The position numbers were made by a program, and so were the translations under genes. A stretch of DNA of 64,000 nt from Halothiobacillus neapolitanus c2 (GTDB lineage Bacteria; Pseudomonadota; Gammaproteobacteria; Halothiobacillales; Halothiobacillaceae). Location of the stretch: assembly GCF_000024765.1 (NCBI RefSeq), contig NC_013422.1, positions 1,879,501 through 1,943,500 on the forward strand. The letters run 5' to 3'. Position 1 is the stretch's first letter. Every line of letters begins with the position of its first letter. The notes beneath the pieces were generated by a model. That model saw nothing but the letters and a program-made list of their open reading frames with translations, was not told where the DNA came from and made no database searches. Positions 6,088 to 21,939 of this stretch are shown in pieces.

Positions 6088-7005
6088 TCAGTTTCGGCGC
6101 GTCAGGAGCGACAGAAGCAAGGCGATAAGAATCAGGATGATGCCGATCAATTCGAACGTACCGGGCCGCTCGCCCAATTGCAGCCAAGCGCCCAGCACAC
6201 CGACGCTGGGAATCAGCAACGAGCCAAATCCGGCAAATCGGGTAGGCAGATTGTGCAGCGCGTAAATCCAGAGAATCCAGCCCAGCGCGCCCGCCGGAAC
6301 GATGTTGTAGAACAGAACCCACAAAAGATGCGGCGTCCATTCGGCGTGCCAGGGCTCCAGCATCACCGCGGCCAGCAGGATGGCAAAGCCACCGAACAGC
6401 ATCTGCCAGGCCGTGACGTTGAGCAAATCAAGCTTATAGCGCGCGCCGAATTTCTTCTGCCAGATCGAGCCGCCCGCCCAGGTCAAACCGGACAACACGG
6501 CAAATAACGACGCACCAACGGCCAGATGCCCCCGCCACGGCGCAATCATGAAAAACAAACCGATACCGGCGATGCCCAGCGCCAGCCATTGGCGCCCGGT
6601 CAAGCGTTCATGCAATACGACATGCGCCATCAGCATCAGCCAGAGTGGCATGGTGAATACGATCACGGCTGTCTCGCCCGCCGCACCGGTTTGCAACGCC
6701 CACATCATGAAGCCGACAAAGCCGGCAGTTTGCAGGAGCCCCAATGGAATAACGTAATGCATGGGCGGCGGTCTGAGCGATCGGCCCGTTGCAGGTAGCA
6801 TGAGCAGCAGCAACACGGCGGGAATGATCGTACGCAGGGCGCCGAACCACAGCGCGGCAATCTCGCTCAAACCGCCTTTCATCACCACCCAGTTATAACC
6901 CCACAGCAAACCGAGCAGCAGCAGGGCGACCAACGGCCAGAAATAGGGATGATGACGGGCGGAACGAGATGTACGTACCGCCAAAGATTCAGGGATGGAG
7001 GACAT
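6088..7005 (-). CDS. EamA/DMT-family permease
   Basis: A drug/metabolite transporter superfamily membrane protein of 305 residues with about ten predicted helices, arranged as two EamA repeats of five. The first helix carries LWGYNWVVMKGGL, a typical EamA start; the second repeat contains SGLTWAGGSIWQKK and ends with a strongly hydrophobic helix before RRN. Substrate cannot be inferred. The open frame extends upstream to 7758, but that part is antisense to the cnoX gene; ATG 7005 begins the protein just before the first helix. It is divergent from cnoX and followed by parE on the same strand. Confidence 0.85.
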   Translation of the reverse strand: MSSIPESLAVRTSRSARHHPYFWPLVALLLLGLLWGYNWVVMKGGLSEIAALWFGALRTIIPAVLLLLMLPATGRSLRPPPMHYVIPLGLLQTAGFVGFMMWALQTGAAGETAVIVFTMPLWLMLMAHVVLHERLTGRQWLALGIAGIGLFFMIAPWRGHLAVGASLFAVLSGLTWAGGSIWQKKFGARYKLDLLNVTAWQMLFGGFAILLAAVMLEPWHAEWTPHLLWVLFYNIVPAGALGWILWIYALHNLPTRFAGFGSLLIPSVGVLGAWLQLGERPGTFELIGIILILIALLLSLLTRRN

Positions 7006-7164
7006 AAGTTGACCCAGAGTGTGGCCGCGCCGAAAAGCAAAAAGGGGGTGGAGCATAGCAGCACGAACAGGGTTCTGCCGATGGCACGTCTTGAAATCAG
7101 GCAGCATCACCGCCATACACTTCCCACTTCTTTCATTTTTCACATTTAAACCACGGGGATACTC

Positions 7165-17740: not shown

Positions 17741-18313
17741 ATGAATCTGATTGAGTTTCTTATACAGAGACAATCCACGCCCGCCAAATATCTAATCGAA
17801 CCGGCTCCATCTCATGAAGAATTGAAACAACTCATGGCCGCGGCAGAGAGCGCACCGGATCACGGTGCCCTCAAACCTTGGCGGTTTCTGGTCATTTCAG
17901 GATCGGCTCGGTACGCGCTTGGCGAGCTTTTTGTGCAGGCATTGCTACAAAGAGCGCCACATACAGAACCTGATCTACTGGAACGTGAACGCGAGCGCGC
18001 CCTGCGTGCGCCCATGCTGGTCGCGGCCATTGCCCGATTGGATCATGCGCATCAAAAGGTACCAGCTACCGAGCAATTCATTGCCGCAGCAATCGCGACG
18101 CATCAGTTGATGCTTGCCGCCAACCATCTGGGCTATGGCACCATCTGGCTCACCGGCAGCCGAGTCTATGATCGGCAGGTGATGTCTAGGTTGGGCCTAG
18201 CACCCGAAGAAGAACTCATCGGCTTGATCAATATCGGCACCGTCGCACCCACAGCACCATCAAAACAACCTCAGAGGAGGAAATCAGACGTGACGTACTG
18301 GACGGGCGAATAA
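17741..18313 (+). CDS. Nitroreductase-family flavoprotein (YdjA-like)
   Basis: A 190-residue FMN-dependent oxidoreductase of the compact nitroreductase family. Recognisable parts are the N-terminal RQSTPAKYL helix with the FMN-phosphate-binding Arg, the AAAESAPDHGALKPWRF segment typical of YdjA, and the central HQLMLAANHLGYGTIWLTG region. The C-terminal NIGTVA segment closes the flavin site. Physiological substrate unknown. It stands alone; its stop at 18313 abuts the end of the convergent V4R-like gene at 18314 with no spacer and no obvious terminator. Confidence 0.88.
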   Translation: MNLIEFLIQRQSTPAKYLIEPAPSHEELKQLMAAAESAPDHGALKPWRFLVISGSARYALGELFVQALLQRAPHTEPDLLERERERALRAPMLVAAIARLDHAHQKVPATEQFIAAAIATHQLMLAANHLGYGTIWLTGSRVYDRQVMSRLGLAPEEELIGLINIGTVAPTAPSKQPQRRKSDVTYWTGE

Positions 18314-19513
18314 TCATGGTGCGCGGGTAACAATACGGTCGTATCCATCACCTGCGGCAATGGCGTGCGTTTGTTCTACTGACCAATAGCCTTTTGGATT
18401 ATTGAACGTCTGCATGTACAGCTGCTCATTGAGCCCCGGTCGTTCGCGGATATCGATTTTCCACAGCAGATGAGCAATCCCCCGAACGGCCCCCATGGCA
18501 AGGAAAGATAACTGCTTCTCACCGGCCTCTGGTGGATAAAGCCGACGGAAACCAACGCCTTCATAGGAGTTGTAAATCCGGATGACCAACTCTTTGCCCG
18601 GCTCGATCTTCTCCACGCGCCATACGCCCCATCCCAACGCATTGACGACCGCAACGATGCCATGCACCCAGTCACTCACATCCTGACACATGGGTTTGAT
18701 CATCTGATCCCAGGCATCGCTTTCCATGATGCCGCCTAAGGTATTGAACGCGCACACATGGCCAGCCAAAACAAAAGATTCGCGCGCCATATCCGATGGC
18801 ACACCAATCGCCACCATGCGCCGATACACTTCGTAACTGATGAAGTTGTAATAATCGGCATAGTGAATCGTCAAGGCCACGCCGAAAGCGAGAATCAGTC
18901 CATTGCCCCCCTCGGACGCAGGCTTGCCGATCAGCGGCATGCCGCCGACCGCCTCGATAATCGCCTGCTCATCCACGTCCGTACTCATGGGCGCGCATTC
19001 GGGAAAATCGAACCGCGCCGGGGCATCCGTCATCGCTTCCGGATTCTTGATGAATGGCGGCAGTGGCTCGACGGCCGCACCAAGCTCGAACCGATCCATG
19101 CCACCGCCAGCGTGACGGCAATTTACCTCTCGTGTCGCTCGCCCGGTCATGCCGCTGATAAAGCCCGCATCGAAGAAGCAACTGGGTTCCGGACGACCGT
19201 GGATATATGTTTTCTCGCCGTAGTGAGAATGCTCAGCAACCCAATGATAGGCGTCTTCTTGCCTCAGCACACCAAACCCACAGGCGGTATATTCTGCCAG
19301 CAGGTCTGACTCTGAATACCCTTTTTCTCTCAAGTATTCGACGACCATTCGAGCACCGCGGGAAAGCAGTTCCCGGGGGTCGAAACCATCTTCGATTCCC
19401 TCACCCAACAAGACAGCCATTTGCAAATGGGCATTGTAGTGATTGCAATGGAACACATGGCTCAAACCACCCACACGAATCAAACCACGATCAGCCTGAA
19501 TATTCATACTCAT
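18314..19513 (-). CDS. Protein with two tandem V4R-like domains, function unknown
   Basis: A 399-residue soluble protein that looks internally duplicated. The first half (about 20-143) ends in CFFDAGFISGMTGRATREV-NCRHAGGG, which resembles the C-terminal signature of V4R (4-vinyl reductase) domains (GY/F-x-SG, then E-x-x-C-x-A-x-G). The second half (about 215-395) repeats the plan, starting with a matching H-x4-YN motif (His22 and His217) but without the paired cysteine. V4R domains are small-molecule or metal-binding modules found in BchJ and in phenol-sensing activators; no ATPase, DNA-binding or membrane segment is attached here. The ATG at 19513 has a GGA ribosome site seven bases upstream. 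It follows the triple-repeat gene by 48 bases, apparently as an operon. Domain call moderate; function unknown. Confidence 0.6.
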   Translation of the reverse strand: MSMNIQADRGLIRVGGLSHVFHCNHYNAHLQMAVLLGEGIEDGFDPRELLSRGARMVVEYLREKGYSESDLLAEYTACGFGVLRQEDAYHWVAEHSHYGEKTYIHGRPEPSCFFDAGFISGMTGRATREVNCRHAGGGMDRFELGAAVEPLPPFIKNPEAMTDAPARFDFPECAPMSTDVDEQAIIEAVGGMPLIGKPASEGGNGLILAFGVALTIHYADYYNFISYEVYRRMVAIGVPSDMARESFVLAGHVCAFNTLGGIMESDAWDQMIKPMCQDVSDWVHGIVAVVNALGWGVWRVEKIEPGKELVIRIYNSYEGVGFRRLYPPEAGEKQLSFLAMGAVRGIAHLLWKIDIRERPGLNEQLYMQTFNNPKGYWSVEQTHAIAAGDGYDRIVTRAP

Positions 19514-19561
19514 GAAATTTTCCTTTTATAAAATTCGGTGTACTTACTCAGTGAACGGACA

Positions 19562-20542
19562 TTATTTTTCCGGATCAAGAAATGCTTCCAAATCTTCAAA
19601 ATAAAGCCCGAATTCATTGCGTAAAAACTCAGCAAGCTGATCCATTTGTAAGTCGTTGAGTGATATCTCAGACATACCGGGCTGGTACTGAATCCCCAAC
19701 TTGCCCAGCGTCTCCTGGCATCCAGTGGAGATCAGAGTCGGTGAAAGCGGCTTGTAACCCAAGCTCGCTCGTTGCCGCATGACAGCCATAATGAGGGCGG
19801 GCACCCCAATGCGATGAACCCGCTTGCGAAATACTCGCTCAAGCCACGAGCGTTTCCGGGGTTGTTCGCGCTGACGCCGCAAGCCTGCAACGACCAGTTC
19901 GTGCGTTCCGCCCGGAAGGTGGACATCAAACTGCTCGACCAGAATGCTTTGCAATGCACCCAGGTCAAGTGGGGACATTTCCAAAGAGGCTTGACCGAAA
20001 TCCAGCCTCCTACGTCTCAAGATACTAAAGCGGACACCCAGTCGAACAGCGATTACCGCTGGCTCGATCGGCGGCAATTGAGCCTGGCGGCGACTTTGGT
20101 TGATGGCAATGTACAAATCAACCAGGTAAATCTGCTTTAGCGATTCATCGGTCTCCGCACGAGCGGGTTCAACAGGAGCGATGGGTTTTGCCGCCGCCTC
20201 AGATTGATCGGGATGACTTTCCTGAACTTGTGAGGGCGAAGTGTCTGGTACAAATTCAGGTGGCGCCTGATCACTGGACAGCTCTTGCAGTTGTTGCGCA
20301 TTGAAGCTGGTCTGGAACAGTTCATTGAGTACGCGAGACAATTCATCCGTGGCATCCGATGAAAGAACGACGGGCAATTTACCTTCAATTCGATCCTGGC
20401 CCTTGATCGCCAGACGAATATTCACGCGAACGCGCATGACAGCGTGTTCAATCTGAGGTAGCCCCGCCACCTTTCTCTCTGCATTGATCGCTGCAAAGAT
20501 CCGCTCCAGATCAATAACGACGGATTGGGGTGATTGCGACAT
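19562..20542 (-). CDS. Triple-repeat protein of unknown function
   Basis: Not recognised. The 326-residue protein contains three diverged copies of a module of about 75 residues (roughly 10-87, 139-216 and 247-322). Each begins with a helix followed by Leu-Pro-x-Ile/Leu-x-x-Ala/Thr, as in GLPQIEHAVMRVRV and LPPIEPAVIAVRLG, and closes with a leucine-rich helix such as ELSRVLNELFQTSF or QLAEFLRNEFGLYF. A Pro/Ser/Glu-rich linker (about 90-138) separates the first two copies, and an Arg/Lys-rich stretch (about 221-243) precedes the third. No signal peptide or membrane helix is present. It lies upstream of the V4R-like gene on the same strand and probably shares its transcript. Confidence 0.6.
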   Translation of the reverse strand: MSQSPQSVVIDLERIFAAINAERKVAGLPQIEHAVMRVRVNIRLAIKGQDRIEGKLPVVLSSDATDELSRVLNELFQTSFNAQQLQELSSDQAPPEFVPDTSPSQVQESHPDQSEAAAKPIAPVEPARAETDESLKQIYLVDLYIAINQSRRQAQLPPIEPAVIAVRLGVRFSILRRRRLDFGQASLEMSPLDLGALQSILVEQFDVHLPGGTHELVVAGLRRQREQPRKRSWLERVFRKRVHRIGVPALIMAVMRQRASLGYKPLSPTLISTGCQETLGKLGIQYQPGMSEISLNDLQMDQLAEFLRNEFGLYFEDLEAFLDPEK

Positions 20543-20997
20543 AAGCGAAACTCCGTGTGTTTGAATCCATAGCCTTGTGATATTGAGGGTATCCGTAATA
20601 CTAAGTCAATTCAGATTGTCCCACCAAGAGCTCTCTAACTAGGTCAAGGAGGGGTACACGCATTGGATAAACGGCTACCGTTTCGACTTACTCAAGGAAG
20701 CGCTGAACAGTTCTATTCTGGGGGTTTTAAAAGGGCGAAAATCAAAAAACGAGATTAGAGCACCTCAAAATACCCGTGATTCGTCGTTCCCGCGAAAGCG
20801 GGAACCCAGAAAAATCAAGGCGCTGGATTCCCGCCTACGCGGGAAAGACAAGTTTTTCGAGCTTCCCATTATTGATTTCATTCTTGAACGATCAGTTGTG
20901 TGATCGTTCATCGCAGTGCATCCCCGCCGCGCTCAGACAGTCCAATTTGATCAAAGGTTCCTCAAAAAAACCAAAATCAGGAGGACCGTTTGAGAAA
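20543..20997. other. Gene-free region with repeats between the triple-repeat gene and flgL
   Basis: No convincing gene. It contains a GGAAGCGCTGA segment at 20694-20704 that recurs in the hairpin array at 28627, the REP-type element at 20760-20868, and a perfect 10-bp hairpin TGAACGATCA/TGATCGTTCA at 20885-20910 with a six-base loop and no T run. Confidence 0.6.
20760..20868 (+). repeat. REPIN-like element, copy 1
   Basis: A 109-base element with two palindromes: GTTCCCGCGAAAGCGGGAAC near 20785-20804 and the TTCCCGCCTACGCGGGAA stem near 20827-20844. Copy 2 lies at 53715-53823 in inverted orientation, about 90 percent identical by eye over the whole length, including the non-palindromic ends (GCACCTC at one end, TTTTTCGAGCTTCCC at the other). 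The TTCCCGCG...CGGGAA core is a widespread proteobacterial REP motif. Confidence 0.8.
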
Positions 20998-21939
20998 TCA
21001 ACGAATATAGTTAAACAGGGACAGACTTTGGATTTTCACCATGCTCTGCTGGGTCGCCTGTAAATTGAGGTAGCTTTGATTCAATTTGGTAATGGCGCTG
21101 GCGACATCGGTATCGCGCAAACCGGAAAGCGTTTGTTGGGTAAGCACATTTTGTGCGGCGTTATCGTTTTTAGCCGTGCTCAGCGTATTGAGCGCATTAC
21201 CCATGCTGCCGCGCGCGTCCGTCACCTGGTTCATCACAGCATCAATATCTTTTTGCGCATTTTGATAAATAGTCTGGAGATTTGCGGGCTGGGTCGTAAT
21301 AGCCGTTTTCAGTTGATCAATGACTTGCAGAATGCTGGCATTTCCGCCTGTCGTTGCACTGGATGAGAGTTGGAAAATCTGCCCGGCTGGCTGATTAATG
21401 GCCACGGACTGCTGATCGGAAATGGCCAACTTGACACTTGTGACGTTTTGAAAAGACGGACTGGTGGAATCCAAGGCGGGATTAAGCTGACCGCTGGCGT
21501 CATAGGGTTTTTCACGTGCGACCGTACCGGAAAACAGATACTCCCCGCGCTCGTCCGTGGCATTCATTTGACCAGCCAAAGCCTTTTGCAGTTGATCCAG
21601 TTGATCCGTCAGTGCGGACAGTGACATGCCATTTTGCGCAGCGTTGTTCGCTTGGATGGCAACATCACGCACGCTTTGCAGCATCGTGGTAATTGAACCC
21701 AAGGTCGATTCCTGCACCTGAATCTTACCGGTCGCATTGTCGATATTCGTACTGTACTGATTCTGCTTGCTATTGAGCACAGACAGATCGCTAGCCGTCG
21801 AAAAGGCGACCGGATCTTGCGCCGGGTTGGTCAGTTTCACACCCGTTGCGATTTCTTGCTGAGACTGCAACATCGCGGACTGCTGCTGTTGCAGATTGCT
21901 CAGGCCCTGTGCAAACACCATGGAAGTAGAAACACGCAT
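20998..21939 (-). CDS. flgL: FlgL, flagellar hook-filament junction protein (HAP3)
   Basis: FlgL forms the second ring between hook and filament and is exported by the flagellar type III system. The 313-residue protein has the flagellin-like N-terminal helix (MRVSTSMVFAQGLSNLQQQQ) and a matching C-terminal coiled-coil helix (ITKLNQSYLNLQATQQSM), which pair in the D0/D1 core. It follows flgK by 12 bases in one transcript and is the last flagellar gene at this end. Confidence 0.95.
   Translation of the reverse strand: MRVSTSMVFAQGLSNLQQQQSAMLQSQQEIATGVKLTNPAQDPVAFSTASDLSVLNSKQNQYSTNIDNATGKIQVQESTLGSITTMLQSVRDVAIQANNAAQNGMSLSALTDQLDQLQKALAGQMNATDERGEYLFSGTVAREKPYDASGQLNPALDSTSPSFQNVTSVKLAISDQQSVAINQPAGQIFQLSSSATTGGNASILQVIDQLKTAITTQPANLQTIYQNAQKDIDAVMNQVTDARGSMGNALNTLSTAKNDNAAQNVLTQQTLSGLRDTDVASAITKLNQSYLNLQATQQSMVKIQSLSLFNYIR

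Follow-up and report, generated by a model that had tools for sequence, protein, structure and literature searches.

The window analysed here is a stretch of 64,000 nucleotides from Halothiobacillus neapolitanus c2, whose genome (G000) has 2,582,886 bases, and the locus of interest is a pair of minus-strand genes, here called B and C, which are separated by a gap of 48 nt. A nitroreductase-family gene (17741-18313) converges on the pair, while upstream of gene B the same strand carries a gene of the flagellin family (20998-21939), which is probably flgL. The features of the pair are given below.

18314..19513, minus strand: gene C, a tandem V4R protein of 399 aa (open reading frame; Pfam V4R E 0.0073, below the cut-off; fold search)
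18317..18982, minus strand: second V4R half of C, residues 178-399, without the Cys motif (PoxR Z 10.2; TRAPP chains Z 8-9)
19019..19492, minus strand: first V4R half of C, residues 8-165 (Pfam stretch 108-144; helix and hairpin order; profile match to the second half)
19094..19180, minus strand: putative metal site of C, C112, E129, C132 and D140 (all four in 35 of 37 homologues)
19562..20542, minus strand: gene B, a repeat protein of 326 aa and the first gene of the pair (open reading frame; directly upstream of gene C at 35 of 37 loci)
19595..19825, minus strand: unit 3 of B, residues 240-316, the most diverged (weak HMM pieces; secondary-structure order in the model as in the other units)
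19817..19849, minus strand: amphipathic segment SWLERVFRKRV of B, residues 232-242, a putative membrane anchor (conservation; position)
19862..20158, minus strand: unit 2 of B, residues 129-227, which aligns with the single-unit homologues (HMM i-E 1.6e-20; alignment A6)
20150..20269, minus strand: Pro/Ala-rich linker of B, residues 92-131, predicted to be disordered (pLDDT below 50; sequence)
20255..20527, minus strand: unit 1 of B, residues 6-96 (single-unit HMM, i-E 1.4e-12)

Both genes are under purifying selection: C has dN/dS values of 0.05-0.09 and B of 0.14-0.21, each from three pairs of close genomes. A scan for promoters and terminators gave nothing above chance. Neither protein has a family match above the cut-off in Pfam, NCBIfam, PADLOC or PHROGs, and a search for anti-phage defence and phage families returned no PADLOC or PHROGs match at E<=0.1 for C, for B or for one example of gene A, a small third gene found at other loci. 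A flagellar link was also considered and set aside, given that upstream flgL and flgK genes are seen at three loci of the genus Halothiobacillus besides that of G001, and not elsewhere, so that they are treated as chance neighbours. In the gap that separates gene B from the flagellin-family gene, one frame of the short intergenic stretch 20776-20840 reads RESGNPEKSRRWIPAYAGK, which resembles a dispersed repeat.

Gene C is a tandem V4R protein, and both the V4R relationship and the duplication, which the sequence-only reading had proposed, are borne out by computation, for the second half through its fold and for the first through profile, secondary structure and the match between the halves. 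In the structure search, the second half matched PoxR (Z 10.2, rmsd 3.1, 158 residues aligned), MopR (Z 10.0), DmpR (Z 9.8), TRAPP chains (Z 8-9) and BcsD, the subunit D of cellulose synthase (Z 8.0-8.6), and its best four Foldseek matches all had a probability of 1.00, with E 0.011-0.026. The first half presents the same order of helices and hairpins in the model, which is itself of low confidence (AlphaFold2 with 6 sequences; pLDDT 55, pTM 0.57), and the V4R cores of the two halves match each other in hhalign with probabilities of 63 and 79% (E 7e-5 and 1.6e-5, calculated for a single comparison, with 42 sequences).

The Pfam V4R profile (PF02830) reaches 16.8 bits on C, at residues 108-144, against a curated cut-off of 31, and 5 of the 27 aligned family members match it at E<=0.01, so the window protein may be regarded as a V4R homologue that itself scores under the cut-off. 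The best of these members, L126, has two stretches of V4R (E 4.7e-13) and a full Cys/Glu/Cys/Cys motif in each half. Near the metal motif, each of its halves can be aligned with PoxR and MopR, albeit at E 0.1. Split forms of the tandem V4R relatives, in which two adjacent genes encode one half each, are found at L062, L063, L128 and L129.

In the window protein, the Cys motif is confined to the first half, as had been noted from the letters, given that C112 and C132 are found there and the second half keeps only the aligned Asp (D392), with Q381 at another of the sites and A384 in place of C132. D140 is present in all 37 pair-type homologues, and C112, E129 and C132 are each found in 35, as is the complete quartet, a distribution that makes a C-E-C-D site restricted to the first half likely. 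The Cys, Glu and Cys residues were lost as a block in L103 and L104, both from one genus, and the quartet is also missing from relatives of C that are linked to Roadblock genes. At the aligned sites, MopR and PoxR have Cys, Glu and Cys, followed by a Cys eight residues further on (the end of the MopR stretch), and the Zn ligands of DmpR are given as Cys151, Glu172, Cys177 and Cys185 (PMC7264223). The spacing from the Cys to the fourth ligand is eight in both C and DmpR, whereas the spacing of the Glu is two off and the fourth residue of C is an Asp. The Zn site of Asgard and bacterial V4R proteins joins the sheet to a helix and thereby creates the cavity (PMC10933270).

The phenol sensors are the closest solved relatives of C in both sequence and fold; its second half shares their fold (Z about 10), and their Cys, Glu, Cys and fourth-ligand spacing recur in its first. 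This may point to an aromatic-compound sensor of the ordinary kind, the output of which would be an unlinked regulator, with B merely a stabilising partner. However, no match to the AAA+ or DNA-binding domains of the XylR/DmpR-type sigma-54 activators was found in its 399 aa, and no aromatic-degradation genes were recognised by eye next to the pair, and we consider this explanation rather improbable. C also differs from MopR, PoxR and DmpR in having two V4R halves per chain, an Asp as the fourth residue and a dedicated partner. The PYP-V4R fusion proteins (PMC12826048) share with C a V4R input module and the lack of an obvious output domain, but they are fused to a photoreceptor and are not described as a tandem V4R with a partner similar to B.

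The same fold is also found in TRAPP Bet3/TRAPPC3 and in the TRAPPC3 of Asgard archaea, and both halves of C have, in the place of alpha-5, a pair of glycines with three residues between them (G117/G121 and G341/G345), as described in PMC2253512, according to which V4R proteins are the prokaryotic kin of a protein central to eukaryotic trafficking. In contrast with TRAPP Bet3, C is bacterial and tandem, and a longin partner is not known for it; the Bet3 profile gave no match on C at E<=1. A similar result was obtained with BcsD, which has the same fold, given that its profile gave no match on C at E<=1 and that no cellulose genes were recognised by eye beside the pair.

Gene B was read from its sequence as three helical units of about 75 residues with a Pro-rich linker, and the three units and the linker stand, whereas the label “helical” is only partly right, as the unit is predicted to be beta-alpha-alpha-beta-alpha, i.e., alpha/beta. 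The model (pLDDT 69.8, pTM 0.43) shows the three units and a low-confidence linker at residues 92-131. In a search with a unit profile built from 36 single-unit homologues, with the Halothiobacillaceae left out, units 1 and 2 scored 33.7 and 59.4 bits, against a top domain score of 6.6 bits in 500 shuffles of the window protein. The match to unit 3 is weak and split into residues 240-272 (i-E 0.11) and 293-316 (i-E 0.0012), and neither piece alone (-1.7 and 4.7 bits) exceeds the shuffles; in the L054 homologue, the third unit is found with i-E 3.2e-9.

Three-unit proteins are encoded in the window, at L054 (G382) and at L026 (G024), and elsewhere B usually has a single unit with an amphipathic, anchor-like tail. 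The B proteins of G001 and G002 are 90% identical over their full length, and that of G009 is broken by unread bases. In the tree of gene C, the Halothiobacillaceae have a support of 1.0 on their own and of 0.77 together with G382, a grouping that would fit a single origin of the triple-unit B. No fold was recognised for B, as its matches in Foldseek and VIA-align were weak and mixed (best Z 5.5). Its profile had no match at E<=1 among solved structures, and a search with the single B protein gave one hit, to a chain named UL13 (E 0.035), which is taken as chance. The B family has no significant match in the four family collections and seems undescribed.

The segment SWLERVFRKRV lies between units 2 and 3 of the window protein, in the same place as the C-terminal tail of the single-unit proteins, and its residues W233, R236, F238 and R241 are invariant in five homologues (alignment A2). 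A C-terminal amphipathic pattern, defined after the tails had been inspected, occurs within 13 residues of the end in 28 of the 37 B proteins, against a mean of 1.1 and a maximum of 5 in 200 shuffling rounds. At 0.51, the hydrophobic moment of SWLERVFRKRV is exceeded elsewhere in the protein, so the role of anchor rests on conservation and position, by which the segment looks like a putative membrane anchor. We take the tail to resemble the membrane-targeting sequence of MinD.

The pairing of B and C is conserved. The 37 full-length loci of the pair type, from 35 genomes, were located through C, and at 35 of them the gene immediately upstream, in the same orientation, is B, with both exceptions coming from one genus. 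Among 57 close relatives, C is present in eight genomes and B in five, which are exactly those with a close C, and among 369 genomes sampled across the class C was found in eight, B in eight and both in seven (hypergeometric 3.7e-13, with relatedness ignored). In that sample, G304 has a C fragment at a contig end, and G308 has B without C. The sequence-only reading had named a non-V4R fold together with a lack of co-occurrence as what would speak against it; the second half of C has the V4R fold, and the genes co-occur and adjoin.

The named relatives with gene C belong mostly to Halothiobacillus or the Halothiobacillaceae, and 29 of the 42 genomes of one family have the gene, while in a phylum-wide sample of 398 genomes C and B are each confined to the genome of the window, which indicates that the family is rare. 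Literature searches found no paper on this gene pair. At 12 of the 37 loci, B is preceded by the small gene A, of about 100-117 aa; these 12 include L101, where the two are fused in one open reading frame of 249 aa (6267-7016), the single case of fusion. Gene A was not found in the genome of the window or in its four pair-bearing relatives, and its profile had no match among solved structures. A sulfur lifestyle was also tried as a correlate, using 80 hand-picked genomes, among them 23 of the carriers known at the time. The marker soxB is above the cut-off in 16 of these 23 carriers (one more, G009, has fragments), but 17 of 18 non-carriers from the same two families have it as well, and it therefore fails to follow the pair.

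The relatives of C that lack B are split from the pair type in the tree (support 0.999) and are found in other company. For example, the neighbours of L027 (G006), by Pfam, are a Ras-family GTPase, two Roadblock/LC7-like genes (one of them weak), a CHASE2 histidine kinase and a protein of the phosphonate-binding type, and L028 (G003) has a similar gene order. Robl_LC7, phosphonate-binding-type and SCP2 genes lie near the tandem V4R relative at L015 (Acidocella), a hybrid histidine kinase and a receiver-GGDEF gene at L029, and a PAS gene at L126. By eye, the clusters of L027 (2951-13763) and L028 (2799-13607), both in genomes of the genus of the window, also include a response-regulator-like gene; the SCP2 gene of L015 (6789-7181), of the sterol-transfer family, is close to both the tandem V4R and the Roadblock genes.

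The clusters of L027 and L028, together with the high rank of Bet3 chains in the fold search of C, may suggest a regulator of a Ras-like GTPase, on which the tandem V4R and its partner would act as the Bet3 subunits do in TRAPP. However, a Roadblock/LC7 match is absent from the genome of the window and no GTPase recurs beside the B-C pairs, and we consider such a regulator very unlikely.

Phasin-like genes are found at six loci (Pfam-checked in four), on the opposite strand beside C at L098, L100, L101, L102 and L125, and beside an orphan B at L060 (7502-7891), which makes a link to storage granules possible. The pair might then be a carrier or a scaffold of the granule surface, in which C holds or passes on a lipid-like molecule, with B as its anchor on a hydrophobic granule (e.g., of polyhydroxyalkanoate) or on the membrane, and without signalling. 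The cavities of Bet3/V4R proteins hold palmitate or phenols (PMC10933270), and BcsD, among the fold matches of C, assembles with BcsH, its partner, into a filament (title of 7zzq), both of which are in keeping with such a role. Phasins, however, are found at a minority of the loci and are absent beside the window pair, and the relatives of C have signalling genes as neighbours, so that a carrier or scaffold is unlikely, although it is the strongest of these competitors.

The pair belongs with the V4R ligand-binding proteins, its partner families being unnamed, and most likely comprises a small-molecule-binding protein and a membrane-attached partner. The alternatives initially offered, a ligand carrier or a sensor together with an effector, remain the proper pair of candidates. 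Given that kinase, receiver, PAS, Roadblock/LC7 and Ras-like GTPase genes are the neighbours of relatives of C, the favoured reading, to which we assign an even chance, is that the pair is an operon encoding a receptor or adaptor complex of the cytoplasm. Against it count the lack of a kinase, GTPase or regulator that recurs at the pair itself, where the commonest neighbour family except A and B is found in six of the loci clustered, as well as the absence of gene A from the searched genomes of the window and its four pair-bearing relatives, the two loci of C without B and the B without C in G308, the lack of the metal quartet in one genus and in relatives linked to Roadblock genes, the low confidence of the C model and the unrecognised fold of B.

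For such a receptor or adaptor, we infer a metal, a ligand, a pseudo-dimer, contact between B and C, membrane binding and signalling, which may be brought together as follows. The two V4R domains of C probably pack together like V4R dimers, and the C-E-C-D site of the first half would connect the sheet with a helix, giving shape to a hydrophobic pocket, while the second half, having lost the site, may bind the partner. B would be this dedicated partner, with its alpha/beta units and an amphipathic segment that would set the complex at the membrane or at the surface of a hydrophobic granule, where the activity of B and, in other species, also of A would change once C binds a small hydrophobic molecule.

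A bolder version, which we regard as speculative and rather improbable, is a bacterial membrane- or granule-bound receptor in which the tandem V4R pseudo-dimer and the new family B (and A) would form a ligand-gated organiser of an intracellular surface, by analogy with Bet3 in TRAPP. If true, this organiser would share its wider family with the V4R proteins encoded beside Ras-like GTPases and Roadblock proteins. To our knowledge, the roles of V4R proteins outside transcription factors are hardly known, and a V4R protein that is conserved and has its own, unnamed partner with an apparent membrane anchor provides a concrete system for them, although it overturns nothing. The genus of the window has cultured members, and deletion therefore looks feasible.

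Finally, the number of copies varies at some of the loci. L107, L113 and L116 have two B genes around or ahead of one C, and G202 has a second copy of C, without B, which is cut by the end of the contig (L061).
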